DNA from: a virus
Reading direction: 5' to 3' (one strand)
DNA: 64,000 bases
Virus record (IMG/VR): IMGVR_UViG_3300022921_000002
Span: 62,001-126,000 of that record
Positions within the stretch are counted from its first letter, which is position 1. Every line of letters starts with the position of its first letter. Of the stretch, positions 41,067-58,581 are shown in pieces. A program made the translations under genes and the position numbers. The notes below the pieces were generated by a model, which saw only the letters and a list, made by a program, of their open reading frames with translations, was not told where the DNA came from and did no database searches.

Positions 41067-41438
41067 ATGGCTTATGTCAACGCCTTTGGAGTGGAGATGA
41101 AAACTATGGCAAAGAAAGAAATAACAGTTGATGCTGAAGCAGCAGCTGCACTCGACACAAATAATGACGGTCATATCTCGGCAGAAGAGCTGAGTATGGA
41201 GTTGGAATTTAAACGCAAGCGCCTTGAAGATCAAGATGCTCAACGAGATGCAATGCGTAAAATGACTTGGTTTGCATTGTTTGGAATGTTATTGTACCCA
41301 GTAGGTATTGCTATAACATCATGGTTAGGATTAGATGAAGCATCAGGATTAATTGGAGATATTGCACCGACATATTTTGTTGCAATTTCTGCACTTGTTT
41401 CTGTTTTCTTTGGTGCTAACGCATACAGTAGTAAGTAA
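41067..41438 (+). CDS. EF-hand membrane protein
   Basis: A 123-residue protein with one canonical EF-hand loop (DTNNDGHISAEE, calcium ligands at positions 1, 3, 5, 9 and 12) at about residues 30-41, then two membrane helices (WFALFGMLLYPVGIAITSWL; YFVAISALVSVFFGANAY). The RBS AGGAGC supports ATG 41067. A calcium-responsive holin or adhesion protein is possible. It is alone between a late promoter and a hairpin. Confidence 0.7.
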   Translation: MAYVNAFGVEMKTMAKKEITVDAEAAAALDTNNDGHISAEELSMELEFKRKRLEDQDAQRDAMRKMTWFALFGMLLYPVGIAITSWLGLDEASGLIGDIAPTYFVAISALVSVFFGANAYSSK

Positions 41439-43921: not shown

Positions 43922-43929
43922 TATAAATA
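43922..43929 (+). promoter_or_regulatory. T4-type late promoter (TATAAATA) for the curli/lysis block
   Basis: Exact late box about 20 bases before the RBS (GAGGAG) of the first holin-like gene. No other promoter is seen before the end of the plus-strand block at 51.3 kb, so it probably controls all of it. Confidence 0.8.
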
Positions 43930-43949: not shown

Positions 43950-44228
43950 ATGGATTTTTTAACGCTTGTTGGTGATGTAGGTTTCCCTATTGCTGGTGCC
44001 CTAGCTGCCGGTGTATTTGTATTTATCACACTTAAGTTTATCCTTGCAAGCGTTACTGACACTGTAAATTCCCTCAAAAATATTATGACGGGTTTGGACA
44101 ACCGAGTTCAGACTATGAATAACGATTTAGTGAAAATTGATGCCCTTTTAAGTTATGCTCTAAATGTTAAACCAAACATTGACCGCATAGCTGCAAATGA
44201 AGGCAAGGATGATGCAAGGAGAGATTAA
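43950..44228 (+). CDS. Holin-like (BhlA-type) membrane protein
   Basis: A 92-residue protein: one membrane helix at about 12-34 (FPIAGALAAGVFVFITLKFI) and a long heptad C-terminal helix (TGLDNRVQTMNNDLVKIDAL). This one-helix-plus-coiled-coil layout is that of BhlA/UviB holins. RBS GGAGTATTAATT. It is paralogous to the 126-residue gene at 44588. First gene of the late plus-strand block. Confidence 0.65.
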   Translation: MDFLTLVGDVGFPIAGALAAGVFVFITLKFILASVTDTVNSLKNIMTGLDNRVQTMNNDLVKIDALLSYALNVKPNIDRIAANEGKDDARRD

Positions 44229-44398
44229 TGCTTTGGAAAGATTTACTATTAATGAAATTTAAAAATGGTTTTCGCATTCTCAATAACGACGATGATAAAT
44301 TTTTTGTTATTGACGACGTGAAACTAAATATCGGTGACATTTATCGAGTTGGCCCAAACGGTTACTTCGAGTTAATTGAAGAAGGACCGCCGCTATGA
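44228..44398 (+). CDS. Small soluble protein, unknown (56 aa)
   Basis: ATG 44228 overlaps the upstream stop (TAATG); TGA at 44396 overlaps the next ATG (ATGA). Strand-rich (NGFRILNNDDDKFFVIDD, VGPNGYFELIE). No family recognised. Confidence 0.5.
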   Translation: MLWKDLLLMKFKNGFRILNNDDDKFFVIDDVKLNIGDIYRVGPNGYFELIEEGPPL

Positions 44399-44586
44399 TG
44401 TGGATGGAATATGCGATTAATCAAGCTGGAAAAAACTTTGAAATAAAAGGTGACTGGCCCGGAGAGGTTATGGGAAAACTAAAAGACGGTACGGATAAAG
44501 AATATTATCTATACAAACCAGGCGATAAGTTTATAGTTAATGAAGATGGTTGGTTGATGCATCACGGAAACATTAACGAGGAATAA
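44395..44586 (+). CDS. Small soluble protein, unknown (63 aa)
   Basis: A 63-residue protein (MMWMEYAINQAGKNFEIKGD, DKEYYLYKPGDKFIVNEDG) with beta periodicity. Coupled to both neighbours. Resembles the 56-residue protein in layout, so a small paralogous pair is possible. Confidence 0.45.
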   Translation: MMWMEYAINQAGKNFEIKGDWPGEVMGKLKDGTDKEYYLYKPGDKFIVNEDGWLMHHGNINEE

Positions 44587-44587
44587 T

Positions 44588-44968
44588 ATGGAATTTGACA
44601 TTGCAGGAGCCATAAGTGAATATGGATTTCCTATAGTTGCGGCTTTTGGAATGGGCTATTTTATATTTTTTATATGGAAATGGGTTACGGAAGTAATTGA
44701 TCCGGTCCTAGGTGAAGCGATGTTTACTTTGATTAAATTAGTAGATCGTGTACGTATGCTTGATAATGATATGATTAGACTTAATAGCAAGTTATCTATG
44801 GTACTTGAATATAGGTCAAAACTAAATCCTAAGCGACAAGATGAGTTGCATAGGTTGGTTGCCGAATATCAGGCAGGTAGTAAAGCGTTTAATTCAACTG
44901 GGGTTGTAGATGAAGAAAATATTAACAATAGTGGCGGTGATGATGCCGGCACAGGTAATAGCAAGTGA
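44588..44968 (+). CDS. Holin-like membrane protein, second copy
   Basis: A 126-residue protein that repeats the first holin-like layout: GFPIVAAFGMGYFIFFIWKW membrane helix at 13-32 aligns with GFPIAGALAAGVFVFITLKF, then a coiled-coil (LDNDMIRLNSKLSMVLE versus MNNDLVKIDALLSYAL). Two such proteins in one late operon suggest a holin/antiholin pair or a dedicated pore pair near the export system. Its tail overlaps csgF by 59 bases. Confidence 0.65.
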   Translation: MEFDIAGAISEYGFPIVAAFGMGYFIFFIWKWVTEVIDPVLGEAMFTLIKLVDRVRMLDNDMIRLNSKLSMVLEYRSKLNPKRQDELHRLVAEYQAGSKAFNSTGVVDEENINNSGGDDAGTGNSK

Positions 44969-45371
44969 ATTAGTTTGGGGATTTAAATCTCCCGCTTTTC
45001 ATTATGGTAATGGATATTCAACTCACGTTTTGTCGGTTGAACAACTTTCTCACAACAGAAAACAAGATTATAAAGACGAGCAACAACGTATTGCCGATGA
45101 ACTTGAGCGAGAAGCAGAAAATACTACTTTAGCCAAATTCCTTCGCAACGTAGAGTCAAGAATTTACGCTACGTTATCCAAACAAATGGTTGATGCTATG
45201 TTTGCCGATTGTGGCGACAGTTGTTCCAACAGCGGTTCAACTGACCTTGAAGATAATACGATTGCTTGGTTAAGAGACCCGGTAACAGGTTCTATCACAT
45301 TAACGATTACCGAAGCAGATGGTAGTACTACTGAAATCACAATACCAGGTGCTGGGGAGTTTAATTTCTAA
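44910..45371 (+). CDS. csgF: CsgF-like curli secretion accessory protein
   Basis: A 153-residue exported protein with a signal peptide (MKKILTIVAVMMPAQVIASE). Directly after it, LVWGFKSPAFHYGNGYSTHV corresponds to the VNPSFGGNPLNGS-type N-terminal segment of CsgF that inserts into the CsgG channel, followed by a helical/coiled part (AENTTLAKFLRNVESRIYAT) and a beta-rich C-terminus. CsgF partners CsgG in curli export. The order csgF then csgG (1-base gap) is preserved. A 3' overlap with the holin-like gene implies coupling. Confidence 0.85.
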   Translation: MKKILTIVAVMMPAQVIASELVWGFKSPAFHYGNGYSTHVLSVEQLSHNRKQDYKDEQQRIADELEREAENTTLAKFLRNVESRIYATLSKQMVDAMFADCGDSCSNSGSTDLEDNTIAWLRDPVTGSITLTITEADGSTTEITIPGAGEFNF

Positions 45372-46184
45372 ATGAGATTTTTACCCTTCATACTAATATT
45401 CTTTTTAAGTGCCTGCGCAACACCCGGAAGTTTGAAAGTTTTAGGTGACCTTGATAAATCTCCAACATTATCAGGAAGTCCTATTGATGATAGATTACTC
45501 GCCGTTCCTGAACTGTCAGGTCCAAAGATTACAATTGCAGTTTATGAATTTGCCGATAAGACAGGTCAAAGAAAGACGAGTTCCAACTCATCATTATCAA
45601 GTGCCGTAACTCAAGGTGCTGAGGTTTGGGTAATTAAAGCATTACAAGATGTGGGCAATCAAACATGGTTTGAGGTAGTTGAAAGAGTTGGCATTGATAA
45701 TCTAATTAAAGAAAGACAGCTTATTCGCCAAACGCGTGAAGTATATGAAAAAGAAAAAGAAAAAGGCCCGACACCTTTACAGCCAATGTTATTTGCCGGC
45801 TTATTACTTGAAGGTGGTGTTGTAGGTTATGACTCCGATACCGCGGCCGGTGGAGTAGGTGCAAGATTCCTAGGAGTCGGAGCCTCAACAGAATATAGAG
45901 TTGATACAGTAACAGTTGTTATGAGACTTGTGAGTGTTAATTCAGGAAAGGTGTTAATGAGTATCGCAACTGAGAAATCAATTGCAAGTTACAGATCTTC
46001 AACCGATGTATTTAAATTTATTGATTTAGGACAAGAAAATATTGAGGTTGAAAATGGGTATTCCGTAAATGAACCTGTGAACTATGCAGTAAGGGCTGCA
46101 ATAGAACAGGGTGTGATAGAATTGGTTAAAGACGGGGTCGATAAGGGATTATGGTCGTATAAAATAAAAGAGATAAGAGGATAG
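45372..46184 (+). CDS. csgG: CsgG-like curli outer-membrane export channel lipoprotein
   Basis: A 270-residue homologue of CsgG. Lipoprotein signal (lipobox LSAC at C15); ITIAVYEFADKTGQRK; VKALQDVG-type helix; ERVGIDNLIKERQLIRQTRE; GGVVGYDSDTAAGGVGARFL; GASTEYRVDTVTVVMRLVSV; NEPVNYAVRAAIEQGVIELV; DGVDKGLWSYK. These are the conserved CsgG blocks, nearly in full length. CsgG is a nonameric outer-membrane channel, so the phage may open a selective export route in the host outer membrane. The start abuts csgF. Confidence 0.95.
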   Translation: MRFLPFILIFFLSACATPGSLKVLGDLDKSPTLSGSPIDDRLLAVPELSGPKITIAVYEFADKTGQRKTSSNSSLSSAVTQGAEVWVIKALQDVGNQTWFEVVERVGIDNLIKERQLIRQTREVYEKEKEKGPTPLQPMLFAGLLLEGGVVGYDSDTAAGGVGARFLGVGASTEYRVDTVTVVMRLVSVNSGKVLMSIATEKSIASYRSSTDVFKFIDLGQENIEVENGYSVNEPVNYAVRAAIEQGVIELVKDGVDKGLWSYKIKEIRG

Positions 46185-46186
46185 AA

Positions 46187-46924
46187 ATGAAGCATTTCAT
46201 ATTTTTGATTATGATGATGTTTGGTTCTGCAGCCTATGCCAACGATATCTACATTACACAAAGCGGTGACAATTTAGATTTAGACATAACACAAGATGGG
46301 CAAGATAACGAATTCGGTGATAGTACCACTGATGCAACTTTGACGGGTGATACAATGACTTTTAATATCACCCAAACAGGTGATTTTAACAAGATTGACG
46401 TTATCATTGATGGTAACAACTACACAGGTACTTGGGCATTTACAGGTGACGATAACACTGTTGATATGACTTGTGATTCCGCATCAGGTTTGAATTGTGA
46501 AACAGTTCAGGTTGATGTTACTGTTATAGGTGATGATTCTGACTTTAAGATTTACATTGGTGAAACAGCAGATGCCGATAGTTTAGTTGCTGACTTTACT
46601 GTTACAGGTGATGGTAACGCATTTTATCTTGATGCTGATGGCACAAATCAGAATTTTGATGTTAATGTTAATTCAAGCGCAACATTACTTACAGCAGGTA
46701 CAGATCGTACACATTTAACTTACGATGTTAATGCTGATAGTGCCGGTAACTTGATTGCTATTGACAGCACAGGAGATGGTGATGTTAATGGGCATGAAGT
46801 AGATCTTACAGTTACTGGTGGCGGCGGAGATTTTATTATTGTTCAAAGCGGTATTTACGATAATCTCGTAAACGCAACTTTCAGTGGAGATTCAGCAAAT
46901 GTTCAAATTACACAATCTGATTAA
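46187..46924 (+). CDS. Curlin-like repeat protein
   Basis: A 245-residue exported protein with a signal peptide ending YAND (MKHFIFLIMMMFGSAAYAND). The mature part contains repeated Q-x-G-D-x-N motifs (ITQSGDNLDLDITQDGQDN, ITQTGDFNKIDVIIDGNNY, TGDDNTVDMT), with Asn/Asp/Thr/Gly bias like CsgA/CsgB. Predicted to be an amyloid subunit or CsgG cargo. One base overlap with the FecR-domain gene. Confidence 0.8.
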   Translation: MKHFIFLIMMMFGSAAYANDIYITQSGDNLDLDITQDGQDNEFGDSTTDATLTGDTMTFNITQTGDFNKIDVIIDGNNYTGTWAFTGDDNTVDMTCDSASGLNCETVQVDVTVIGDDSDFKIYIGETADADSLVADFTVTGDGNAFYLDADGTNQNFDVNVNSSATLLTAGTDRTHLTYDVNADSAGNLIAIDSTGDGDVNGHEVDLTVTGGGGDFIIVQSGIYDNLVNATFSGDSANVQITQSD

Positions 46925-48069
46925 TGAAATTTCATACTATTGGCTTCATTGCCATTCTGCTGATACCGAGCTTATGCTTTGGCGCTGTAGATGAAGATGC
47001 GGGGGCAATCGGTGAATTTTCAGGATCAGGAGTCATTGAGCGTGGGAGAGATGTTATTGATGGTGGCCAAGGTGTTGGGGTGCAACCCATGGATACCGCC
47101 GTCACAGCAAAAGGCCGAATGCGAATCGACTTTATTGATGATACGAGAGTCGATATTACCGAACACGCAAGGTTAGTAATTGATGATTTCGTTTATGACC
47201 CAAATGCTGGGACTGGTAAGCTGGGATTACGTGCGACATTGGGAACAGTACGCTATGCGTCTGGAGCAATTGCAAAGAACAGCAGAAGAAACGTCAGCAT
47301 CAAAACACCGTCAGCAACGATAGGTGTACGTGGTACTGATTTCGTTATGGTGGTTGATGAAATAGGTGGCACGATGGTGACATTATTACCATCGTGTTCC
47401 ATCGACTCCCTCGGAAAAACCAATTGCGTGACCGGTGAAATTTCAGTTGAGTCTGACACCGGGTTTGTTATTATGAATAAAGCATTTCAGGCAACAATAG
47501 TAAAAAGCAGATGGACAAAACCAACTAAGCCATTATTATTGGCGCTTAATGAAAGTGACATAACAAACCTTTTGATTTTAAGAAAGAAAAAACCTTTATT
47601 TGAAGAAGATGGGCAACCATTAGAACAAATGACGGATTTCCTAGATATAGATTTCTTAAATTTTGACGGTTTGGATGTTGATATTTTATCCGATAGTATT
47701 AAAGACATATGGTTAACAGAGTTTGATTTAAGAGATAGTGATTATTATCTCGGTGAACTACTACACGACATGGTTGAACAATTAAACATTGCTTTAATGC
47801 GAAGACTTATGGGTGAATTAGATGCACAGAATGCCGAGTTCTTTAATTTCAGAGAAGAAGGTTATGATCCTGTAACAAGAATTACTTTAAACAGAGAAGA
47901 TCCTAGTTGGATTTTTGAAAGAGACGATAGTGGTTATTATCACCACCTAAGAATATATGTGGAGCAGCAATATGGATATACGATTAATATCCAACAACAG
48001 GACGAGTATGTTTGGGATTACCGTCTTGGCGTTGGTAATAATAATATTGACATCATCCAAATCAAATAG
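46924..48069 (+). CDS. FecR-domain periplasmic protein
   Basis: A 381-residue protein with a signal peptide (ending SLCFGAVDED) and a FecR-type domain at residues 60-180: TAVTAKGRMRIDFIDDTRVD, then GKLGLRATLGTVRYASGAIAK and SIKTPSATIGVRGTDFVMVV, the classical FecR pattern. Residues 200-381 are an acidic/aromatic part of unknown function. It probably senses or scaffolds periplasmic material in the curli locus. Its 3' end overlaps the second curlin-like gene by 98 bases. Confidence 0.85.
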   Translation: MKFHTIGFIAILLIPSLCFGAVDEDAGAIGEFSGSGVIERGRDVIDGGQGVGVQPMDTAVTAKGRMRIDFIDDTRVDITEHARLVIDDFVYDPNAGTGKLGLRATLGTVRYASGAIAKNSRRNVSIKTPSATIGVRGTDFVMVVDEIGGTMVTLLPSCSIDSLGKTNCVTGEISVESDTGFVIMNKAFQATIVKSRWTKPTKPLLLALNESDITNLLILRKKKPLFEEDGQPLEQMTDFLDIDFLNFDGLDVDILSDSIKDIWLTEFDLRDSDYYLGELLHDMVEQLNIALMRRLMGELDAQNAEFFNFREEGYDPVTRITLNREDPSWIFERDDSGYYHHLRIYVEQQYGYTINIQQQDEYVWDYRLGVGNNNIDIIQIK

Positions 48070-48850
48070 TGGACCAAATGAAGTTTATATGTATCAAACA
48101 GGTGACGACTTTACGTTAACTATCACCCAAGATGGCAGTCAGAATTATATAACTGGTGTAAGTGGACAGACTAAAGGTATTGAAGGTGACAACAATACGG
48201 TTGATATGGTACAAATAGGACAGTATCATGGTATCGCAGGAATGTTAGATGGTGATAACAATAACATAGATTTTTATCAAGGTGGCGGTGGTGACAGCGG
48301 AATGATTACTGCAATGGTAACAGGTAATAATAATGACCTGGTGGTGTGGCAAGGTAAGCATCCTGATGGTACAACTGACTTGTCAGAAGGCGGTGACCAC
48401 ACTGCAACGGTTACCATTACTGGTGATTATAATGATATTAAGGCCGGACAAACTGATCAAGGACAAATTAATCAAACTTATGGTAGGCATGAATTAACCG
48501 CAGAAATTACCGGTGATAGCAATGATGTTGGAATGACACAAAAAGGAAATCAAAAGCATACATTGGACCTTGATATTTCTGGTGATGGTAATGATGTTAC
48601 AACTTATCAGCATGGTAATGGCGGACAAAAAACTGCAACCATTGAAGTTTCTGGCAACTATAACGTAATTGATGTAAACCAACGTGGAACAAATTCAGCG
48701 TCAGCAACCATTTCAGTAGAAAGCATATATGGTCCTGCCTATAATGTAACACTTAGCCAACAAACCGACACTTCTGCTAAATCATTTTCTTTAAGTGGTG
48801 TATGTAATGATCCAAATGGATGTGTCGTAAGTGTCGAGCAACACAACTAG
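47972..48850 (+). CDS. Second curlin-like repeat protein
   Basis: A 292-residue protein from ATG 47972 (GGAG 7 bases upstream); ATG 48008 with AGGA is a shorter option. N-terminus has a signal anchor (MFGITVLALVIIILTS). Then at least seven repeats with a DNN/NDV core: GDDFTLTITQDGSQN, GDNNTVDMVQIGQ, GDNNNIDFYQ, GNNNDLVVWQG, GDYNDIKAGQ, GDSNDVGMTQKGN, GDGNDVTTYQHGN. Each resembles the curlin Q-x-G-x-x-N strand-loop unit. Likely a secreted amyloid. Confidence 0.8.
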   Translation: MDIRLISNNRTSMFGITVLALVIIILTSSKSNSGPNEVYMYQTGDDFTLTITQDGSQNYITGVSGQTKGIEGDNNTVDMVQIGQYHGIAGMLDGDNNNIDFYQGGGGDSGMITAMVTGNNNDLVVWQGKHPDGTTDLSEGGDHTATVTITGDYNDIKAGQTDQGQINQTYGRHELTAEITGDSNDVGMTQKGNQKHTLDLDISGDGNDVTTYQHGNGGQKTATIEVSGNYNVIDVNQRGTNSASATISVESIYGPAYNVTLSQQTDTSAKSFSLSGVCNDPNGCVVSVEQHN

Positions 48851-48858
48851 GAGAAGTA

Positions 48859-48969
48859 ATGGATACAGTCGTCGCGTTTTTCATAGCAGGATTTTTTACA
48901 GCATTCGGTTGGTGGGCAGCAAACAAAATAACAACCCAAATTGATACACATATTGAGCAGGCTGAGTAA
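48859..48969 (+). CDS. Single-pass membrane peptide (36 aa)
   Basis: ATG 48859 behind AGGAGAAG. MDTVVAFFIAGFFTAFGWWA is a membrane helix, the rest is acidic. The stop overlaps the next start (TAATG). Small helices of this kind often regulate or anchor neighbours. Confidence 0.55.
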   Translation: MDTVVAFFIAGFFTAFGWWAANKITTQIDTHIEQAE

Positions 48970-49331
48970 TGGATTTAATTTTAAGTTTGGCTTTGTCAAC
49001 ACATTTGGGTCTTTCTCAAGATTATAATGAAATTCATCCTCATATAAGATTAACTAATGATAAATATATCGCAGGCGCATATTATAACAGCGTCGAAAAA
49101 TTGAGTGTATACTCAGGAATAAAATATAGTTATGGTGATATTGCAATAGAAGGAGGTGTGGCTACAGGCTATAGGCCACATCCAATAGCTCCTTATGGTA
49201 GGGTAACCTACGATTACGTGGATAATATAAGATTATTTGGGACTACGGCATTTGAATCCGACGGCTCTGCAGCTCGAGGAGGAATTGTATTAGGAATAGA
49301 ATTTATACTAAATCCACGGGAGAAGCAATGA
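48969..49331 (+). CDS. Small outer-membrane beta-barrel-like protein
   Basis: A 120-residue protein with a short hydrophobic start (MDLILSLALSTHLGLSQDYN) and eight-strand-like alternation (YIAGAYYNSVEKLSVYSGIK, YGDIAIEGGVATGYR). Resembles a minimal outer-membrane barrel. It is followed by a 4-base overlap with the large secreted gene. Function unknown. Confidence 0.55.
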   Translation: MDLILSLALSTHLGLSQDYNEIHPHIRLTNDKYIAGAYYNSVEKLSVYSGIKYSYGDIAIEGGVATGYRPHPIAPYGRVTYDYVDNIRLFGTTAFESDGSAARGGIVLGIEFILNPREKQ

Positions 49332-51322
49332 AACATTTACTATTAACAACTGCATTAGTCATACCAAGCTGGGCTATTGCTGATACTTCGAGTTTACAAA
49401 CATCATCTCACGGTTTACTTGAGAACCAATGGGTTAAAGCTGGCATTAATAAAGACTCAGGCACATTTGGCTCTGGCGGAAGTACATCACCGGGCCTGTT
49501 ATTTGATCCTGAAGGTTCGGGTACATTTAATTCTAGTTATGATTATCTGACGCCTGGCTCGCCGTTTGACGGACAAGCACTAAAGGTAGATGGCACAAAT
49601 AAAGCAAATAATAATACAGGCTCAAAAACTATCGTTGACTCTGACGGTTTAACAGACGGCACAGACAGCATGACTTGGAGTGGTGATGTTGATGTTGATG
49701 GCGGTACATGGAATGTTGAAAATACATTTACATTAGAAGATAATAAACCATACATTGATGTTGAAACAAAAATTACCGCAGGTTCTGATGCTGATACTGT
49801 AGCATATGGTAAATTTATTGACCCAGACTCACAAGGTATGCCGGGAGATAGTTCATCAACAGATAACGTACTTGGGTATTCAGGTGTTCCTGATACAAAC
49901 ATTGCCTTTTCAGAAGCAACTGTTTCAAAGTATGCATTAGGTGTTTATTCAACGGATACAAACACTACTGCAGGCGTCAATGGTTGGTCATCAGAAGCAG
50001 ATGGATATAACGGAACAAGTTATACAGATGCCGAAGGCAATGCTGTCAATTACGGCAATTCAGATGATACTATTGGTATTAGTTGGTCTTGGACTGGTGT
50101 ATCAACAGGCGACATTCTTACAGCAAAATATGCTTATATCTTCGGCCCATCAGCGTTTGATGCACTTGATGATGCAGTAGATGGTGGAGCAGGCGGTGGT
50201 ACTCCTGGTGAATTACCTACAGGGTGGTCACTTGATGATGTTGGATCAGCAACAGATGCTGCCGAAAGCGGCGGAGCACCAACAGTTGTAAGTACCGCAA
50301 CCGAAACTATTACTTCAACATCAGAAGCAATAAGCACAACACTACCTGTTTTAACTGGTGCAATCACAACGCATGACTCATCTACAGCTGACGGTGTTCA
50401 AACTATTGACCGTGAAACTACTACGACTGTAACAACACCGATGGATGTAACAACCACAAGCTTTGTTAGAACTACTGATACTATGAGTGACGGCAGCGAA
50501 GTTGTTACAGACGGTACTCCAACATCAACTACAGTTGTTCGTAATGATGCTGTTGTAACTGTAACTGATCCAGGTTCATTCGTTGGACGTATGGATCAAG
50601 CATCGCAATTAATCGGATTAAATACTCATCGCAATTTAAATATAGCTGATGGCGTATCAGTAGGTCGCATTAACCATTCGATGGGTGATAACTACGAAGC
50701 AACATCAACGGTGGTTGGTCTTGGTCACACACTTGTAACCGACGATGCGTTAAGACTAAGCCTAGGTATTAATAGAATTGATACTGAAATGTCAGAAGGC
50801 GGCGATGGTGAAATAATAACAAACGCTGTGTCTGCTGAATTAGGAAAGGCAATAGAAGATAAAGACATTACCGTCGTAGGACGAGTAAACATGGCTAAAT
50901 CTGATATTGAATATTCAAGAACAATCGGTACTTTTTCTGCGGCAGGTGAAACATCAGCTTCTGACGTTTCTGCTGGGCTAACAATTGAAAAATCAACTGG
51001 TTCTGTTAGACCTTTCGGTGGATTAACTATCGGAAAATCAAGCACTGATGGATGGACTGAAACCGGAGATGTTCAAGCTGTTTTAACTCATGATGAAGCA
51101 GACGCTACATACAGATATGGTACAATAGGTTTCAATATTGATGAAGGACCAATTACCGCTACATTTAGTAAAAACATTGGCGACAATGATGCCACTAATA
51201 TAAGAATTGGTTTTGAACAAGAAATAAATGAATATGCTATTGTCGGTGTAGATTATAATAGAACTTTGGATGAAGATAATTCAAGCAATTATTTCTCAGC
51301 AGGTATCAAGATACGGTTTTAA
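49328..51322 (+). CDS. Autotransporter-like secreted protein
   Basis: A 664-residue protein with a signal peptide (MKHLLLTTALVIPSWAIADT). Residues 30-400 are Thr/Gly/Ser/Asp-rich beta passenger. Residues 430-664 form an alternating-strand domain (GRINHSMGDNYEATSTVVGL, AVSAELGKAIEDKDITVVGR, RYGTIGFNIDEGPITATFSK) ending SAGIKIRF, the terminal-Phe signature of BAM-assembled barrels. It probably inserts into the outer membrane, displaying a passenger. This could stage the lysis step or change the surface of infected cells. Converges with the SIS gene (17-base overlap). Confidence 0.75.
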   Translation: MKHLLLTTALVIPSWAIADTSSLQTSSHGLLENQWVKAGINKDSGTFGSGGSTSPGLLFDPEGSGTFNSSYDYLTPGSPFDGQALKVDGTNKANNNTGSKTIVDSDGLTDGTDSMTWSGDVDVDGGTWNVENTFTLEDNKPYIDVETKITAGSDADTVAYGKFIDPDSQGMPGDSSSTDNVLGYSGVPDTNIAFSEATVSKYALGVYSTDTNTTAGVNGWSSEADGYNGTSYTDAEGNAVNYGNSDDTIGISWSWTGVSTGDILTAKYAYIFGPSAFDALDDAVDGGAGGGTPGELPTGWSLDDVGSATDAAESGGAPTVVSTATETITSTSEAISTTLPVLTGAITTHDSSTADGVQTIDRETTTTVTTPMDVTTTSFVRTTDTMSDGSEVVTDGTPTSTTVVRNDAVVTVTDPGSFVGRMDQASQLIGLNTHRNLNIADGVSVGRINHSMGDNYEATSTVVGLGHTLVTDDALRLSLGINRIDTEMSEGGDGEIITNAVSAELGKAIEDKDITVVGRVNMAKSDIEYSRTIGTFSAAGETSASDVSAGLTIEKSTGSVRPFGGLTIGKSSTDGWTETGDVQAVLTHDEADATYRYGTIGFNIDEGPITATFSKNIGDNDATNIRIGFEQEINEYAIVGVDYNRTLDEDNSSNYFSAGIKIRF

Positions 51323-51758
51323 ATCTCGGTAACACCACACCGCATTGTTCCATAATCTTATAGAGTGTAAGTAATGCTTCGCACTCAAATTCATGGTAGG
51401 TTTTTTGATTTAAAACAATTGTATCTAATTCAGGAATGTCCATAGGGGCTATTACAATCTTATGAGGTAATAGCCCGCCGACATTAACAAGTCCTTCGAC
51501 AATAGGAGAGTTTGCTCTTGTTGTAATACCGATGATACAGTCAGCAAAAGTTCCGTATTCATATATCCATCTTTTATGCCAACCCTCATCACCACCCAAG
51601 GCGGTTAGGTGAATAGCATCAGGTGCAAAGCAATGTTTGCCAAGATGCCTTGTCATATCAGATGCAGCGTGTTGAGCAATAGCAAGGTTTCCGCCATTGC
51701 CTACAATAGCAATCTTTGGTGAATGAGATATTTTTTTAATAAGATTAAGATCTATCAA
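51306..51758 (-). CDS. SIS-domain phosphosugar isomerase (GmhA-like)
   Basis: A 150-residue protein: AIVGNGGNLAIAQHAASDMT matches the GmhA GNGGSAADAQHFAAE motif, then HLTALGGDEGWHKRW and GITTRANSPIVEGLV. Isomerises a sedoheptulose-type phosphate for LPS heptose synthesis. Shorter than GmhA (about 190). Overlaps kdsB by 14 bases. Confidence 0.75.
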   Translation of the reverse strand: MIDLNLIKKISHSPKIAIVGNGGNLAIAQHAASDMTRHLGKHCFAPDAIHLTALGGDEGWHKRWIYEYGTFADCIIGITTRANSPIVEGLVNVGGLLPHKIVIAPMDIPELDTIVLNQKTYHEFECEALLTLYKIMEQCGVVLPRFKTVS

Positions 51759-52434
51759 GGTATTCCTCCACTAATTTTATATCGTCTGGTACATCAACCG
51801 CAGGTGTACGTTCATTAATCATATATGGTATAACATCAACCATTCCTATGAATGCTAATGTGTCTAGTCCTTTATGTGCATATACTAATTCTTGATCATA
51901 TTCTGGAAAATGCATAATTGTACCAAGATCATATGCATATAAGCCATTAATACCAACAAGATTAGGACTATCAATTAATTCACGGTCAGGTGTTCGTGTT
52001 AAGTAAACAATTTTCCCATTGCTGATAACAGCCTTAACTACGTTTACATTACTTCTTTCTTCATCGGTTAATGGATAACAACACTGAACCATTTCAGCAT
52101 TTGTTTCAAACATTTTACGAATGATTCCAGATATCATTTCAGGTGTAACACACGGTTCATCACTTTGTAAATTCACAATATAATCAGCATCAGTTTGAAT
52201 AACCGCCTCAGCAACTCGTGAAGTACAAGTGTTGTGAATCTTTTTTGTTTTAATAAGATTAGGCGCCCATATGCTGTCGTATTCGTCAGCAGCTACATAT
52301 ACTTTATTAATATCTGCGCAAGCGTTCGCGTTATCAATACAATGATTAAGAACAGATTTACCGTTTACTTCGGCAAATATTTTGCTTGGGAAACGAGTTG
52401 ATCCTGTTCTTGCTGGTATAATACAATCAATCAT
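51745..52434 (-). CDS. kdsB: CMP-Kdo synthetase-like (KdsB)
   Basis: A 229-residue cytidylyltransferase: CIIPARTGSTRFPSKIFAEV is the KdsB activation loop (IPARYxSTRxPxKPLA), with NLQSDEPCVTPEMIS (QGDEP motif) and VGINGLYAYDLGTIMHFPEY later. Activates Kdo or a similar sugar acid as CMP-sugar for LPS. With the GmhA-like gene it makes a two-step sugar cassette. Start overlaps the upstream gene by 8 bases. Confidence 0.85.
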   Translation of the reverse strand: MIDCIIPARTGSTRFPSKIFAEVNGKSVLNHCIDNANACADINKVYVAADEYDSIWAPNLIKTKKIHNTCTSRVAEAVIQTDADYIVNLQSDEPCVTPEMISGIIRKMFETNAEMVQCCYPLTDEERSNVNVVKAVISNGKIVYLTRTPDRELIDSPNLVGINGLYAYDLGTIMHFPEYDQELVYAHKGLDTLAFIGMVDVIPYMINERTPAVDVPDDIKLVEEYLDRS

Positions 52435-53257
52435 TTAATATATTCCTTATTTCCTCGGGTTTCAAATATGATATAGTTGAATACTCGATAGGTGCGGATA
52501 CAGCTTCATTTCTGAATTGTAATATTTTGTTTGGGCTGATACCCATAAATCCCCACGTGTCGGGTAAGTTATCATAATAGTGAGTATATTTGGTTGTCGG
52601 TGTTCCCGTCATTCCTGCGGTGTAATAAGTACCGCCGTCATAACTAAAATGGTGTGTGGTTGATAACAATATATCATAGATTTCTTCCATTGTCAAGGAG
52701 TAATGAATAAATTTTACACCATACCCAAACTCGTGAGCAATTTTAGTTATGTTCGGTAATATTGTTTTTTCTTTTTCCATTAATCCGCCGATCCGTCGCT
52801 TTGACATTAACGGTTCAGATTTATGAATTGAAACGAATTTACCTTTCTTATTCCATTGTTTTTTAAACGGCCATAATTGATTTACCGTCCAAGGTGTTGC
52901 AACTGTCTGCTTTTGTTCGTACCGATATATGCTTACAATCATACCATTCTTAGGAGGTAGCATATTATTAAGAAACCATTTCATAACATCATATGAGGTT
53001 TCGGCATTACTAGGTTTACGTTTAAATGGATTGATAAATTGTTCAGGCCACATAATAGAAACACGATATGGGCCTTGTGCATAGTCTTCATCTGACATTA
53101 ATTGTGCTTTAAAGAAAACATCACTTAATAAACACATAATAGTGCAGTGAGCATGGGCTGTATCAGCACAAAAACGTACTATGTGGGATGATGTTGGCAG
53201 TGAAATGCTTTTATTATTTTCACAACCTATATAAATAGTTTCAATTAGATTTGCCAT
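52427..53257 (-). CDS. Unknown protein of the sugar operon
   Basis: A 276-residue protein starting MANLIETIYIGCENNKSISL at 53257 (the upstream ATG at 53269 leaves only a 5-base leader from the late promoter). Aromatic-rich blocks (YGVKFIHYSLTMEEIYDILL, YYTAGMTGTPTTKYTHYYDN) give a glycosyltransferase-like impression (N- and C-terminal sites) but no sure motif. It is the first gene of the sugar operon. Confidence 0.5.
   Translation of the reverse strand: MANLIETIYIGCENNKSISLPTSSHIVRFCADTAHAHCTIMCLLSDVFFKAQLMSDEDYAQGPYRVSIMWPEQFINPFKRKPSNAETSYDVMKWFLNNMLPPKNGMIVSIYRYEQKQTVATPWTVNQLWPFKKQWNKKGKFVSIHKSEPLMSKRRIGGLMEKEKTILPNITKIAHEFGYGVKFIHYSLTMEEIYDILLSTTHHFSYDGGTYYTAGMTGTPTTKYTHYYDNLPDTWGFMGISPNKILQFRNEAVSAPIEYSTISYLKPEEIRNILND
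53230..53237 (+). promoter_or_regulatory. T4-type late promoter (TATAAATA) for the cyclase cassette
   Basis: Exact late box on the plus strand, 64 bases before the Cys-rich gene, inside the minus-strand sugar gene. Probably drives the CHASE2 cyclase/lipase cassette. Confidence 0.65.
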
Positions 53258-53280
53258 GATATAATCCATTAATAAAATAA

Positions 53281-53300: not shown

Positions 53301-53423
53301 ATGATAGGTCAAGAGAGATTTTGTAAAAAGTGTGGTCACCGCTGCCACTGTTATGCATCAGACTGTAAAGAATGTGTCAATGATGTTTGCACAAGCTGTG
53401 ATTGTAAGAAAGATAAAGAATGA
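53301..53423 (+). CDS. Small Cys-rich (zinc-binding?) protein, 40 aa
   Basis: ATG 53301 behind AAGGAGTATAAGA. Nine cysteines and two histidines in 40 residues (FCKKCGHRCHCYASDCKECV, then CTSCDC), enough for two metal sites. TGA overlaps the cyclase ATG (ATGA). No family recognised; short Cys clusters can be metallothionein-like or zinc fingers. Confidence 0.6.
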   Translation: MIGQERFCKKCGHRCHCYASDCKECVNDVCTSCDCKKDKE

Positions 53424-55462
53424 AAAATATTTTATTATCTCCTATATGGAGCATATTATTGTTAGGGTTACTTGCTTGGCTGCATACTATTAATCCTTCA
53501 TTCATTGAAAGTTTAAGATTACGGTATTTTGACCAGCTTATTGTAAATCAAGAGGTTGTCCCAAATAACATTTATTCAGTAAACATTGATGAAGATGCAA
53601 TAACCGAATATGGACAATGGCCATTTCCTAGACAAGTATACTCAGAATTTATTATAGATCTGTACAATAGAGGTGCAGGTCTTGTTGTTTTAAATATTCT
53701 TATGTCTGAACCTGATAGATCCGGCGGAGATGAAGACCTTGCTATAACTATGCAGCAAGTACCAATAATTTTAACCATGCTTGGAGCTGAGGAGAACAAA
53801 AATGAAGCGATTAATCCAGGAGCCTCTATTATTAATAGCGATTATATTTCTCTCATTCCAAGTGTACCTGGGATTATCGCTAACATCAATGAGCTTGAAA
53901 CTAATGCAGTGGGGTCAGGAATCATCAACACATTCCCAGAGATCGACGGGGTTACCCGCAGAGCACCGTTGGTATTCGAGTCCGGGGGGAACCTCTTCCC
54001 TAATGTCACCCTTGAGGTATTGCGAGTCCTTGCCGGAGACCCATCCTTCCAAATCAAGTTGTCGCCGCTCGGGGTTGATAAATTAAGAATACCACAATTT
54101 GGAATGATACCAACAAATGAGGTTGGCGAGGTATGGATAGATTGGTCTCAAGGTTATCAATCAGAATCAATAATGAATTTGCCAGATGATTTAGGAGGTG
54201 CTGTAGTATTTGTTGGACCAACAGCTGCAGGTACTATTCAACCGATTTCAACTGCGGTTGGTGGAGTATATCCACAAGAAATACAAGCAGCAATGCTTGG
54301 TACTGTATTTAATGAGTCAAACATCACACGTCACGCCGATGCAAAAGCATGGGGTGAACTGGCTGCTCTAATTGTAGCAGGGCTATTAATAATTGGTTTA
54401 TCCTATTGGACTTTTATAGGCATCGGCGCATTCGTATTAACGATTGGCGGCTTTATAGGAGGGTCTATCTATGTATTCCAAAGTTCAAATTTACTTATTG
54501 ACGGCATCACTATTTCTGTTATGCTGTTCCTTGTTGGTAGTTTACGATATATTGTAAAATTCGTAGACGAGTTTTTACAGAAACAAGCAATCAAAAAACA
54601 ATTCGCGGGTTACGCTTCACCAACGGTTGTTAAGTTATTACAAGAAAATCCGTCGTTAGTTAAGGATGGGCAAAAGAAAGACGTATCAATAGTATTCAGT
54701 GACCTTCGCGGTTTTACTCCTTTAGGAGAAAGCTTTGGCGATGATGTTAAAGGCTTAACGGAGATTATGAATGGTTATATGGATGCAATAACCGAACCAG
54801 TATTAGATGCCAATGGCATGATTATTAAGTATATCGGCGATGCTTCAATGCATATTCACAACGCACCGATAGATGATCCTGACCACCCACGAACCGCGGT
54901 GCAAGTGGCTTTCAAAATGCTGAAAGCAGTGGAGAAATTTAATGTGGCACTTCAAAGAAGTAACCGGCCGCCAGTGGGCATGGGTGCTGGTATTAATTCT
55001 GGCCTGGGTTACATTGGGGAGATGGGTAGTAGTAAGCGGCACAGCTACGACATACTTGGGGATGCTGTATCAACAGCAGCAAGAATTGAGTCTAAATGTA
55101 AAGAATATGGAATGGTACTCCTCATTGGAGAAGAAACGCAACGCCACACAGCTGATGAATTCTTTTACCTCAAGATCGACGACTTGGCAGTCAAAGGTAA
55201 ATCGGTAGGAATTGGAATTTGGACAGCACTTGATGATGTAAAACAACCATGGTATGCAGCACAGAAAAAACACCAAGAAATGTTTGCTGCGTATCAAGCA
55301 CAAGATTTTGATAAAGCTATTGAACTATGTGATATATTACATGGCCACTTTGATAATAAAATGGACGGATATTATGATATGTGGAAAGAAAGATGTGAAT
55401 ATATGAAAACACAAGACCTTCCAGAAGATTGGAACGGCGTATTTATTGCGACCACAAAATGA
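53420..55462 (+). CDS. CHASE2 sensor - class III adenylate cyclase
   Basis: A 680-residue membrane protein. A signal-anchor helix (LSPIWSILLLGLLAWL) is followed by a CHASE2 sensor (residues 35-300, with QWPFPRQVYSEFI, IVNVL-like strands and VFVGPTAAGTIQPI), three helices at about 305-385, and a cyclase domain (410-590). Catalytic: D428 (FSDLRGFT), K470 and D474 (KYIGDASM), D544 (YDILGD), R555 (TAARIE). The K/D pair indicates ATP use. S551 replaces the usual Asn of GDxVN. A phage-borne periplasmic-sensing cAMP synthase is exceptional. A GC-rich patch (53860-54080) interrupts the host-like codon use. Confidence 0.93.
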   Translation: MKNILLSPIWSILLLGLLAWLHTINPSFIESLRLRYFDQLIVNQEVVPNNIYSVNIDEDAITEYGQWPFPRQVYSEFIIDLYNRGAGLVVLNILMSEPDRSGGDEDLAITMQQVPIILTMLGAEENKNEAINPGASIINSDYISLIPSVPGIIANINELETNAVGSGIINTFPEIDGVTRRAPLVFESGGNLFPNVTLEVLRVLAGDPSFQIKLSPLGVDKLRIPQFGMIPTNEVGEVWIDWSQGYQSESIMNLPDDLGGAVVFVGPTAAGTIQPISTAVGGVYPQEIQAAMLGTVFNESNITRHADAKAWGELAALIVAGLLIIGLSYWTFIGIGAFVLTIGGFIGGSIYVFQSSNLLIDGITISVMLFLVGSLRYIVKFVDEFLQKQAIKKQFAGYASPTVVKLLQENPSLVKDGQKKDVSIVFSDLRGFTPLGESFGDDVKGLTEIMNGYMDAITEPVLDANGMIIKYIGDASMHIHNAPIDDPDHPRTAVQVAFKMLKAVEKFNVALQRSNRPPVGMGAGINSGLGYIGEMGSSKRHSYDILGDAVSTAARIESKCKEYGMVLLIGEETQRHTADEFFYLKIDDLAVKGKSVGIGIWTALDDVKQPWYAAQKKHQEMFAAYQAQDFDKAIELCDILHGHFDNKMDGYYDMWKERCEYMKTQDLPEDWNGVFIATTK

Positions 55463-55764
55463 TTAGAACTTTATTTGAAATGTTCTTTAAAAATTATATT
55501 GATGAACAAATAGACAAACGGTTCACGGAGAATATGATTGAAAGATACTGGGCTCAAAGACAGAATGAAACATCAAGACGACTTCAACAAGCAAGAGATC
55601 GCTACAAGATTGATTATCCGCCTTCCCATGAGGCCGAGCAAGATATGTCCGAGCCCAAAGTATTGTCCAGTGGTGACTTACGATGGGACGACGCCAAATC
55701 CCGAGTACAAACAAAAACCACTACATCTTCGTTAAAAGATAAACTAAAGGGGATTAACAAATGA
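55459..55764 (+). CDS. Coiled-coil/basic protein of the cyclase cassette
   Basis: A 101-residue protein (MIRTLFEMFFKNYIDEQIDK, then RFTENMIERYWAQRQNETSR) with helical N-half and Ser/Thr/Lys-rich tail. It starts at ATG 55459 overlapping the cyclase stop (ATGA) and ends ATGA into the lipase. No domain recognised. May anchor or regulate. Confidence 0.55.
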   Translation: MIRTLFEMFFKNYIDEQIDKRFTENMIERYWAQRQNETSRRLQQARDRYKIDYPPSHEAEQDMSEPKVLSSGDLRWDDAKSRVQTKTTTSSLKDKLKGINK

Positions 55765-56501
55765 TAGAAAAATGCGCAACTATGGCTCAGTGTGCTCAAA
55801 TAGCATATATGGACGGTAAAGAAGCAAAAGCTGAATATAAAAAGTTAGGTTATACACAACATAAATTTATTGAAAAGGATGGTGCTCAGGTACACCTTAT
55901 TCAGAATAAGAACGAAATTGTTTTATGTTTCCGTGGTACAGAGCCTGGTGAATTTTCTGATATTAAAGCAGATCTAAATGCTATGCCCGACAAAGCAAAC
56001 AACGGATCAGGTCTTGTCCATAACGGTTTTCAAACAGAAGTTGATAAAGTATGGGTTGCAATTGAAGCAGCATTGGCAAAGGCAAAACCTAAAGACCTAT
56101 TCATATGCGGACATTCATTAGGTGGTGCAATGGCAACAATTGCAACATCTCGTTTGGCTGATGGTCCTTGGAATCCTGTGGCATTATATACATATGGATC
56201 ACCGAGAGTTGGTACTCGTAAATTCGTCAAGAGTTTTAAAAATGTTACTCACTATCGCCATGTCAACAATAATGATTTGGTAACAACTGTACCGTTTGCA
56301 CTTATTGGCTATAGACATCATTGCCCACCACGTTATATTAATTACTACGGTAATATTAGAAAAATGTCGAAGTGGCAAAGAATTAAAGACAAGTGGCGCG
56401 GCCGTTGGAGAGCATTGAAAAAAGGTATGCCTTTTGATGGTGCATATGACCACGGTATGAACCATTACTGCAAATACACGGAGCAAAATAATGATAGATA
56501 G
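55761..56501 (+). CDS. Class 3 lipase
   Basis: A 246-residue alpha/beta hydrolase: LFICGHSLGGAMATIA (Ser119), NNNDLVTTVPF (Asp172) and DHGMNHYC (His at about 231/235) form the triad, and VLCFRGTEPGEFSDIK is the lipase-3 oxyanion strand. No signal peptide, so it should act on inner-membrane or intracellular lipids. With the membrane proteins around it, a role in membrane disruption or host-lipid scavenging is plausible. Overlaps both neighbours. Confidence 0.9.
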   Translation: MIEKCATMAQCAQIAYMDGKEAKAEYKKLGYTQHKFIEKDGAQVHLIQNKNEIVLCFRGTEPGEFSDIKADLNAMPDKANNGSGLVHNGFQTEVDKVWVAIEAALAKAKPKDLFICGHSLGGAMATIATSRLADGPWNPVALYTYGSPRVGTRKFVKSFKNVTHYRHVNNNDLVTTVPFALIGYRHHCPPRYINYYGNIRKMSKWQRIKDKWRGRWRALKKGMPFDGAYDHGMNHYCKYTEQNNDR

Positions 56502-56949: not shown

Positions 56950-57705
56950 TTAAGCTTTCCGCCAATGTTCAAATGAAGGCAGTGTTCTACTATATTCGGC
57001 GACATTTGGTTTTCTTACAATCATAACATCTCCTGCCACACAAAACCTACTTAGTTTTAAATCAGTTTTTGTTTTGAAACTTTGGAGGCCAGGTCCATCG
57101 TCACCTTCCTGTGCAACAATATCATGGTTAAGGTTTGATGGAAATACTAGTAGAACACCGTCCTTTACTGGGAATTGCCATGTTCTTGCATTTGCATAAG
57201 TCCAATTCCCACCCACGTGTTCGCCAAAGAATTTTGAATAGGGCTCATTAGGATGAGCATCACGTGGATCATAGAATCTAATATCACGGTGCCTTTGAAT
57301 ATTTACGTGTGGATAATACACCCATGAGATATGATTCTCAGCATGGTTATGGATATTTATGGATGCTTTATCGGTTATATTAAAGAATGCTTTTGTTATA
57401 AACAAATCAATCTTCATTCGGTTCACACCGATTGTCTCAAGGTACAGGTTTAAACAGTTTGGTAATACTACATCAAACCATTCCGCTAATGCAGGATCAT
57501 TGTGTACTTTCTCATAACCGATAAAGTCATGAGATACACCACTTTCCTTTGAATGTCTAAGATAAGCGTCAAACCACATATCTTTTTCTTTTTGAGTTAC
57601 AGGTTTTCTAACTTCTGTAATTGTTGTTGGAAAAATAAAGTGATTTTGAAATTCACCTTCTTGAGTTGTCGGAAACTTTTCCTCATATCTAAATTGATTT
57701 GCCAT
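56950..57705 (-). CDS. 2OG-Fe(II) oxygenase (TIGR02466-type)
   Basis: A 251-residue oxygenase. SINIHNHAENHISWVYYPHV contains the HxN/H iron-binding region, then RFYDPRDAHPNEPYSK and VFPSNLNHDIVAQEG (distal His). Common in marine myophages; hydroxylates an unknown substrate. Start at MANQFRYEEKF. Its 3' end is 1 base from the plus-strand membrane gene. Confidence 0.8.
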   Translation of the reverse strand: MANQFRYEEKFPTTQEGEFQNHFIFPTTITEVRKPVTQKEKDMWFDAYLRHSKESGVSHDFIGYEKVHNDPALAEWFDVVLPNCLNLYLETIGVNRMKIDLFITKAFFNITDKASINIHNHAENHISWVYYPHVNIQRHRDIRFYDPRDAHPNEPYSKFFGEHVGGNWTYANARTWQFPVKDGVLLVFPSNLNHDIVAQEGDDGPGLQSFKTKTDLKLSRFCVAGDVMIVRKPNVAEYSRTLPSFEHWRKA

Positions 57706-58567
57706 GCTTTCCCATTTCTAACTTATACTGATCGTGGCACATATCACCAAGCGATTTTGTCAGGTTACATAATTTTGATGGATTATCAACTATAGATTTA
57801 ACAGCATCACCGGCACGACGGCCGACAATTTTTCTATTCATTGATTTACCGGTAATTTTTTCCATAGTATCTAAGACTTCGTGGACAGTCCATCCTTGAT
57901 TACTTCCGAGGCATTCGTATGGAGTATTGGATGGTCCAGATATAGCAGCGTTGAGTAAAGAATTACAGAGATCGTTAACGTGAATGTAATCACGTACACA
58001 AGTCCCATCCCGTGTTTCATAATCATCTCCATATACTTCTACGTGTTGCCGTATGCCTGCAGCAACTTCCGCTCCAATTCTAATGAGGTGAGAACTATCC
58101 CCAAGCTGACGATTAATACCATCACTCCCACTAACATTAAAGAAACGAAAAATAGTGTACCCATCAGCTTTCTCCTTTATAATATCTTCAGCACCAACTT
58201 TTGAGCGAGCATATGGTGATGCCATTTCAAAAGCCGATGATGTAGATGCGAATATGAAATTATCAGTACGTAATTTTTGAACCGCATTGAGCGTACCCAT
58301 TGTATTGATACGATAATATGCTGATGGTTCTTTTAATGATTGTGGAACAATACTACGGCCTGCAAGGTGAACTACTGCATCACCCCAACCCATAAGCCAA
58401 TGATCCATAATATCCTGTACCCAAAACTTGTCACAGTATTTAGAAACATCATTGCTTTCGCCATGGAAATTGTTATCAAACCCATGGACTTCATATCCAT
58501 GTTCTTTTGCCAACCGACAAAAATGTGATCCGATATAACCGGACGCACCTGTCACTAATAACTTCAT
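57689..58567 (-). CDS. NAD-dependent sugar epimerase/dehydratase (GalE-like)
   Basis: A 292-residue extended SDR: LLVTGASGYIGSHFCRLAKE (NAD motif), VVHLAGRSIVPQSL, FASTSSAFEMASPYARSK (catalytic Tyr-x3-Lys), NVSGSDG and RDYIHVNDLCN. GalE is usually about 340 residues; this is shorter. Probably makes a sugar nucleotide for the glycosyltransferases. Start MKLLVTG at 58567; a CATAAATA box overlaps the spacer upstream. Confidence 0.85.
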   Translation of the reverse strand: MKLLVTGASGYIGSHFCRLAKEHGYEVHGFDNNFHGESNDVSKYCDKFWVQDIMDHWLMGWGDAVVHLAGRSIVPQSLKEPSAYYRINTMGTLNAVQKLRTDNFIFASTSSAFEMASPYARSKVGAEDIIKEKADGYTIFRFFNVSGSDGINRQLGDSSHLIRIGAEVAAGIRQHVEVYGDDYETRDGTCVRDYIHVNDLCNSLLNAAISGPSNTPYECLGSNQGWTVHEVLDTMEKITGKSMNRKIVGRRAGDAVKSIVDNPSKLCNLTKSLGDMCHDQYKLEMGKHGKSI

Positions 58568-58581
58568 AACCATACTAATAT

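Follow-up and report, generated by a model that had tools for sequence, protein, structure and literature searches.

Curli genes of phages have been described in viruses of abundant ocean bacteria, hosts that do not carry curli themselves, and several guesses about their function have been published. The phage module is discussed in PMC7029224, PMC9004378 and PMC9599517. In the excerpts of the last of these, CsgA/B, FecR, a 'histidine kinase' (HK) and an adenylate cyclase (AC) are named, and the order HK-CsgF-CsgG-CsgA/B-FecR-CsgA/B-AC is given for pelagi-podo- and myophages. In later literature, no newer work on phage curli appeared among the matches listed. A locus of this kind lies in the stretch of DNA analysed here, 64,000 nucleotides referred to as the window, which corresponds to bases 62001-126000 of the 221,447-base virus record IMGVR_UViG_3300022921_000002. 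The T4-like label of this record is inferred from a baseplate tail-tube cap and a topoisomerase II gene. As a whole, the locus is best explained as a late phage curli (type VIII secretion) module, in which the FecR-domain protein would be a structural component and a CHASE2-adenylate cyclase would be coupled to the machinery, a reading with a rough probability of 0.5.

Nine closely packed, intact genes follow each other on the + strand: TMcc1, TMcc2, CsgF, CsgG, Curlin1, the FecR-domain protein, Curlin2 and the genes of two proteins of 120 and 664 amino acids (aa). The CHASE2-adenylate cyclase gene, on the same strand, comes after three - strand genes (51306-53269). An earlier note on this DNA had placed the system at 43950-51322, and the reading frames it named are all intact, on the + strand and at the positions it gave; the interval does hold these genes but ends before the last gene of the module, the cyclase at 53420-55462. 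The note had overlooked this cyclase, and likewise the resemblance of the FecR protein's tail to curlins. The features of the locus are as follows.

43922-43929, + strand: T4-type late promoter-like TATAAATA, 28 bases upstream of the first gene (TMcc1)
43950-44228, + strand: TMcc1, 92 aa, one N-terminal membrane span and a coiled-coil-like part (phrog_18771, E 3.5e-30)
44588-44968, + strand: TMcc2, 126 aa, TMcc1 paralogue (phrog_18771, E 5.8e-28; paralogue alignment)
44910-45371, + strand: CsgF (PF10614, E 1.5e-11)
45372-46184, + strand: CsgG outer-membrane channel lipoprotein (PF03783, E 5.7e-50)
46187-46924, + strand: Curlin1, secreted, curlin-like (PF07012, E 0.0014, under the cut-off; AlphaFold beta-solenoid)
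46924-48069, + strand: FecR-domain protein with a curlin-like C-terminal tail, residues ~320-381 (PF04773, E 1.1e-8)
47957-48850, + strand: Curlin2, secreted, curlin-like (PF07012, E 1.7e-12, five stretches)
48969-49331, + strand: 120-aa small protein, accessory, PagP-like by one PHROG (phrog_3600, E 1.2e-8)
49328-51322, + strand: 664-aa secreted autotransporter-like protein, accessory (signal-peptide-like start, C-terminal Phe)
53420-55462, + strand: CHASE2-adenylate cyclase, last gene of the module (PF05226, E 5.3e-32; PF00211, E 1e-16)

The calls of CsgF, CsgG and FecR made in the earlier note, which also proposed a search with the Pfam models of CsgG, CsgF and the curlin repeat, were borne out at the E values given above, the CsgG match covering nearly the full PF03783 profile (positions 8-207 of 210). 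Curlin2 matched the curlin model with 47.5 bits against a cut-off of 20.7, and Curlin1, with 19.0 bits, stayed just under it. The lipobox Cys15 of CsgG is invariant in 22/22 aligned sequences, which have 56 invariant columns in all, and the length of Curlin2 varies among relatives from 102 to 494 aa (30 clusters). Q-x-G-x-x-N repeats had been read in both secreted proteins. Counted literally, the motif exceeds shuffles in Curlin1, with two occurrences (p 0.0025), whereas the single one in Curlin2 does not rise above them (p 0.23); the patterns akin to it, G[DNS]xN and hydrophobic-x-hydrophobic-x-Q, exceed shuffles in both. The AlphaFold model of Curlin1 is a beta-solenoid (pLDDT 83.5), to which the CsgA fibril 8enq aligns over 110 residues with 23% identity (Z 11.8, rmsd 8.8, rank 9). 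Foldseek found no match for it in the PDB at E 0.001, and a second structure comparison returned general beta-solenoids, with SufB and lyases listed as well as the CsgA fibril. Since all of these match, the predicted model shows a solenoid and not a curlin in particular. Neither CsgE nor GerE, the DNA-binding domain of CsgD, was matched anywhere in the 221-kb record, in line with the earlier note, which saw neither CsgE nor CsgD.

Relatives of the module were collected by a scan of IMG/VR, which gave 116, the best 80 of them kept as loci. Many of these loci are near-identical (81 CsgG sequences form 30 clusters and 46 cyclases form 28), and therefore the counts that follow overstate independence; the family alignments leave out the window itself (L002) and reading frames cut by a locus end. 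Where a locus extends 2 kb or more past csgG on its downstream side, a curlin and a FecR gene are each present in 62/62, and a second curlin occurs in 50/55. CsgF stands in every locus that includes 700 bases or more before csgG (77/77). The cyclase and the membrane pair were counted in loci that reach 5 kb or more before csgG and 7 kb or more after it (32 from IMG/VR and Melnitz): the cyclase is found in 33/33 and both TMcc proteins in 32/33, the remaining locus, L048, having one. In several loci the TMcc pair lies downstream on the opposite strand; the cyclase is on the opposite strand in 3/32. The module is inherited as one unit, and the strictness with which pore, cargo, FecR protein, cyclase and membrane pair are kept together implies that the whole set acts jointly. 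Family matches and co-inheritance thus uphold the claim of a phage curli export set with its own curlin-like cargo.

The same counts bear on another explanation, in which CsgG/CsgF would be a gated pore or pinholin that times lysis, the membrane pair would be holins and the curlins leftovers. A lysis role, with a structural argument, was proposed earlier for the Melnitz module in the excerpts of PMC9004378; its extension to the membrane pair and the curlins is made here. The presence of a holin-like small membrane protein in 33/33 loci and the late promoter motif fit this idea, but leftovers would be lost, and curlins together with FecR persist in 62/62 loci and the second curlin in 50/55. Moreover, CsgG is an outer-membrane lipoprotein and would not depolarise the inner membrane, which makes lysis timing quite an unlikely function of the set.

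Bacterial curli loci are composed differently. The genome scan gave 27 csgG loci, of which seven are phage-type rows, one is a fragment (L108, dropped) and 19 were counted, with up to 10 kb per side, some of them reaching less far to one side (L098 stops right after csgG). In these 19 loci, mostly from Alphaproteobacteria, CsgF occurs in 16 and curlins in 17, and the FecR gene, the cyclase and the membrane pair occur in 0/19 within the DNA compared. This agrees with the excerpts of PMC9599517. CsgE was not found in 14 of the 15 curli-bearing bacterial genomes searched, Burkholderia having it, so that its absence is not peculiar to phages. The seven phage-type rows (L083-L088, L109) come from bins labelled Rhodobacteraceae, Pirellulales, Flavobacteriaceae and Pelagibacter; five show the FecR gene, and two (L085 and L088) end after the first curlin. 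They are probably phage contigs in bacterial bins.

The timing of the module is suggested by TATAAATA, which we take to be the T4 late promoter motif. Among distinct upstreams of relatives, it is found before TMcc1 in 10/45 and before CsgF in 13/59, far above the background of 0.0085 per upstream, and its distance is 13-29 bases in all cases except one (77). It precedes the cyclase in 3/38, Curlin2 in 2/40 and TMcc2 in 1/48 upstreams, and was not seen before CsgG (0/60), Curlin1 (0/57) or FecR (0/47). Counted over the whole window, it is about as common as chance predicts (9 copies against 8.83 expected); only the place of the motif appears telling, and just in a minority of relatives. Its recurrence before the first genes suggests that the gene row is probably read late in infection, which is consistent with the earlier description of the strand as late-controlled. 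Amyloid export at this late stage is likely.

In the excerpts of PMC9599517 the module is headed by one or two 'histidine kinase' genes; the two genes that open the row in the window take this place and are paralogous small membrane genes without a kinase domain. TMcc1 and TMcc2 are related by phrog_18771 and by alignment, each with a single span close to its N-terminus. Of 50,697 phage records, only six contain TMcc1, namely those of HTVC008M and Melnitz, all with the curli module. No kinase family matched among 34 members of both paralogues, the genes that precede csgF showed no HisKA or HATPase domain, and the record's sole HATPase match belongs to a 611-aa frame outside the window (record 126338-126655). 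Histidine kinases were therefore rejected for this pair, given its 92 and 126 aa and its lack of a kinase domain. The 'histidine kinase' genes of PMC9599517 are most likely the same membrane pair; its excerpted text leaves HK and CsgA/B out of the trees as 'short, diverged and/or paralogs'. The resemblance to holins that had been noted for the pair is present in weak form only (phrog_4898 'holin', E 0.0083 and 0.9).

The FecR-domain protein looks, by its domain make-up, like a secreted part of the fibre instead of an iron regulator. Its sole hydrophobic span, residues 1-24, is of signal-peptide type, no Pfam family except PF04773 matches it at E up to 1, and neither an anti-sigma N-domain nor an inner-membrane span before the FecR domain was found by Pfam and hydrophobic spans. 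For lack of that domain and of a second hydrophobic span, the iron or anti-sigma regulator was rejected as an identity of the protein. A wider regulatory explanation, in which it would act with the small membrane genes on curli expression as iron-dependent FecR and histidine kinase, follows the labels given by the authors of PMC9599517 in its excerpts; the PF04773 match and the resemblance of the head fold to PupR (Z 15.1) agree with these labels, but the architecture of the protein, the small size of the kinase-free membrane pair and the sole HATPase outside the window do not, and a transcription loop would hardly be sensible in a late lytic operon. Such regulation is improbable, the least so favoured of the explanations weighed here.

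In the AlphaFold model of the FecR protein (mean pLDDT 76.5), residues 27-193 form the FecR domain and 215-280 a linker predicted with low confidence, followed by a helix at 274-308 and six strands at 320-379, the tail strands forming blocks with pLDDT 82-90. Profile alignment of the tail (322-381, a range picked after the alignment had been inspected) scores 21.3 against the C-end of Curlin1 (212-244) and 26.7 against that of Curlin2 (240-297); 0/150 column shuffles reach either score, and reversed profiles give 12.1 and 10.9. The profiles of CsgF, CsgG, TMcc1 and the cyclase match the tail at E 0.34 or worse, and that of the autotransporter-like protein gives no match (score 10.8). When windows were slid along the full protein, the score peaked twice, at the tail and at residues 1-60; the latter is the signal peptide, which matches a control profile equally well. 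Since the C-end of Curlin1 scores 66.8 against Curlin2, the tail is a much more distant relative of the curlins than they are of each other. Gln379 is invariant in 29/29 sequences.

The head matches PupR and two more FecR-type entries with Z 13.9-15.1. It also matches 5ix9, titled 'cell surface anchoring domain' and named 'Antifreeze protein', over 73 residues (Z 6.9, TM 0.74 of the target, Foldseek E 0.02, 20-22% identity), and this entry is its best PDB sequence match as well, a weak one (E 0.1). Presumably, 5ix9 is the outer-membrane retention end of the Marinomonas ice-binding adhesin. An anchor or nucleator of the fibre is accordingly among the roles that may be proposed for the FecR protein, at somewhat less than even odds.

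The same protein could instead be a periplasmic chaperone or gate that replaces CsgE/CsgC, its tail holding curlins and never leaving the periplasm. The missing CsgE of the record, the signal-peptide-type start without a curlin-type N-terminus and the curlin-like tail itself are in keeping with such a role. It is nevertheless doubtful: neither the CsgE nor the CsgC family of Pfam matches the FecR protein, and CsgE is also missing in the 14/15 curli-bearing bacterial genomes, whose csgG loci have no such FecR gene, so that nothing needs replacing.

The last gene of the module encodes a CHASE2 protein whose cyclase activity is likely, though not sure, judging from its active-site residues. The two metal-site Asp are conserved in 46/46 cyclases (28 clusters), as are the Lys and the Arg, and the purine-site residue is Asp in 32/46 and Ser/Thr in 14/46; we take these positions to act as metal-binding Asp, a Lys-Asp purine pair and a transition-state Asn-Arg. 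The phage cyclases (L001, L003-L082) fall into two domain types, 32 and 14 of 46, with several active-site columns distinguishing them, as though one phage line had exchanged its cyclase domain.

Matches to the cyclase profile of the module occur in 86/142 alphaproteobacterial genomes, and the neighbourhoods of 20 of the first 26 matches listed, about 8-14 kb each with six left out, were inspected. A FecR-domain frame adjoins the CHASE2 cyclase in 7/20 of these loci against 0.18 expected, a figure derived from 51 FecR matches in 19 genomes (~73 Mb). Among the 51 matches, 17 lie inside frames longer than 800 aa, and none reaches beyond position 206 of the 367 of the FecR profile, so the curlin tail was not seen in them. 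Six FecR neighbours were inspected, and two (L138, L149) resemble, by eye, giant adhesins with cadherin/RTX-type repeats. In Sinorhizobium, according to the excerpts of PMC13001267, CHASE2 cyclases receive an outside signal via the outer-membrane barrel NsrA, and those of PMC5498481 list a FecR-domain protein among the targets of the cAMP regulator Clr. That the phage cyclase senses the FecR protein is a tentative proposal, held less firmly than the anchoring role.

Taken together, the late curli module may work as follows. CsgG and CsgF would form the outer-membrane channel, and the curlins would pass through it and stack as amyloid on the surface of the infected cell. The FecR protein would be a structural part: its FecR domain would stay folded in the periplasm, comparable to the FecR-type heads of giant, retained adhesins, and the curlin-like tail would join or cap the curlin stack, so that the fibre is anchored or nucleated at the pore. 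The CHASE2 cyclase would then sense the FecR head in the periplasm and report the export state as cAMP. In its most far-reaching form, which is speculative and unlikely as a complete scheme, this would be an amyloid export machine that reports on itself and is not known from bacteria: a chimera of retained-adhesin head and curlin end at the CsgG pore would template the fibre with its tail and signal to the infected cell, via the cyclase, whether export is under way; in some phages, an outer-membrane-type protein of the module might add outside input, as NsrA does for CHASE2 cyclases in Sinorhizobium. A holin role, superinfection exclusion and sibling capture were considered as further candidate readings. 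Should the FecR protein indeed belong to the fibre instead of being a regulator, 'iron regulation' could no longer be upheld as a reading of the module.

Several observations weigh against this mechanism. When the full-length FecR profile was aligned with Curlin1 by hhalign, residues 74-186 were picked and not the tail (probability 2.9%, E 0.016); the tail alignment emerges with the tail given alone, at E 0.0004-0.004, and a search with the tail profile finds no significant bacterial curlin (best E 0.59). The start of the mature FecR protein is, by eye, unlike curlin starts, and for this reason it is a guess that the tail is exported via CsgG. At Z 6.9, the 5ix9 match falls short of the value of 8 under which the tool advises caution, and Foldseek gives it an E of 0.02. 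The transition-state Asn position of the cyclases is Ser in 32/46, including that of the window, and Asn in 14/46, and therefore cyclase activity could be weak. Finally, the excerpts of PMC9004378 report no clumping in Melnitz-infected cultures.

The 120-aa and 664-aa genes are an occasional add-on to the known module, as far as the compared loci indicate. The 664-aa protein has no Pfam or PHROG match, and neither it nor four relatives match a PF03797-type autotransporter domain at E up to 1; of the autotransporter-like character claimed earlier, the signal-peptide-like start and the outer-membrane-type C-terminal end, with Phe as last residue, remain. Its conserved part is the ~310 N-terminal residues. 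Relatives were found in eight IMG/VR loci, three of them near copies of the window's, and all eight (8/8) lie inside a curli module, which suggests that the 664-aa protein probably works with it; two further loci found via CsgG, L021 and L071, also carry the gene. The 120-aa protein has no Pfam match, and its gene adjoins the 664-aa gene in 5/8 loci, two of the other three ending at a contig edge. One locus has both genes between TMcc1 and TMcc2.

Around the module, the - strand trio at 51306-53269, which separates the cyclase from the other module genes, includes a CTP_transf_3 cytidylyltransferase (E 2.8e-23), and together with an epimerase at 57689-58573 it suggests surface-sugar synthesis. 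A class 3 lipase (PF01764, E 1.9e-23) lies downstream of the cyclase at 55761-56501. At 41067-41438, a partly hydrophobic 123-aa protein has an EF-hand match below the cut-off (E 5.4e-5). An Rfam scan at gathering thresholds returned only tRNAs, and a near DNA search with window positions 1-25000 matched no phage record.

Among described phages, CsgG relatives occur in 14/50,697 records: HTVC008M (2), Melnitz (4), one 1.5-kb 'Salmonella phage' record and seven distant ones from Brevundimonas and Caulobacter phages with 26-28% identity. In one of these, CcrColossus (L165), the neighbours of the CsgG-like gene are annotated as lipoproteins, ATPases or hypothetical, none as a curlin. HTVC008M and Melnitz share the order of the window (membrane pair, CsgF, CsgG, curlin, FecR, curlin, adenylate cyclase), with FecR and the second curlin of HTVC008M annotated as hypothetical only and assigned by position. 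The CsgG of the window is 48-49% identical to theirs and up to 100% identical to IMG/VR sequences. As in the module of PMC9599517, in its excerpts, CsgF, CsgG and at least one curlin stand in a row, FecR follows the first curlin, and a second curlin and the cyclase, which are often present in that module, follow FecR, here with an insertion before the cyclase. The full set is thus not the distinct system that the earlier note had expected, and uniqueness to this phage was rejected, as the same module occurs in Melnitz, HTVC008M and IMG/VR relatives. Only the 120-aa and 664-aa genes after the second curlin are extra to the HTVC008M and Melnitz rows, and in the window, unlike in those rows, three - strand genes set the cyclase apart. 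The gene set is already published; the FecR tail, the identity of the membrane pair, the recurrence of the motif and the placement of the 664-aa gene are the additions made here.

Alphaproteobacterial curli operons (Roseovarius, Pseudovibrio, Altererythrobacter and others) have CsgF-CsgG followed by curlins, with CsgG up to 49% identical, and like the window they mostly lack CsgE (14/15 genomes). Unlike it, they have no FecR protein, CHASE2 cyclase or membrane pair within the DNA compared (0/19 loci). Bacterial pairs of FecR and CHASE2 resemble the phage module in that a FecR head domain adjoins the cyclase (7/20 loci), and differ from it in that the FecR frames are without the curlin tail (0/51 matches). 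With the curli system of Escherichia coli (CsgA-CsgG), the window has CsgG, CsgF and curlin repeats in common; in contrast to that system, its record is without CsgE or a CsgD-type GerE domain, and a FecR protein and a cyclase are added.

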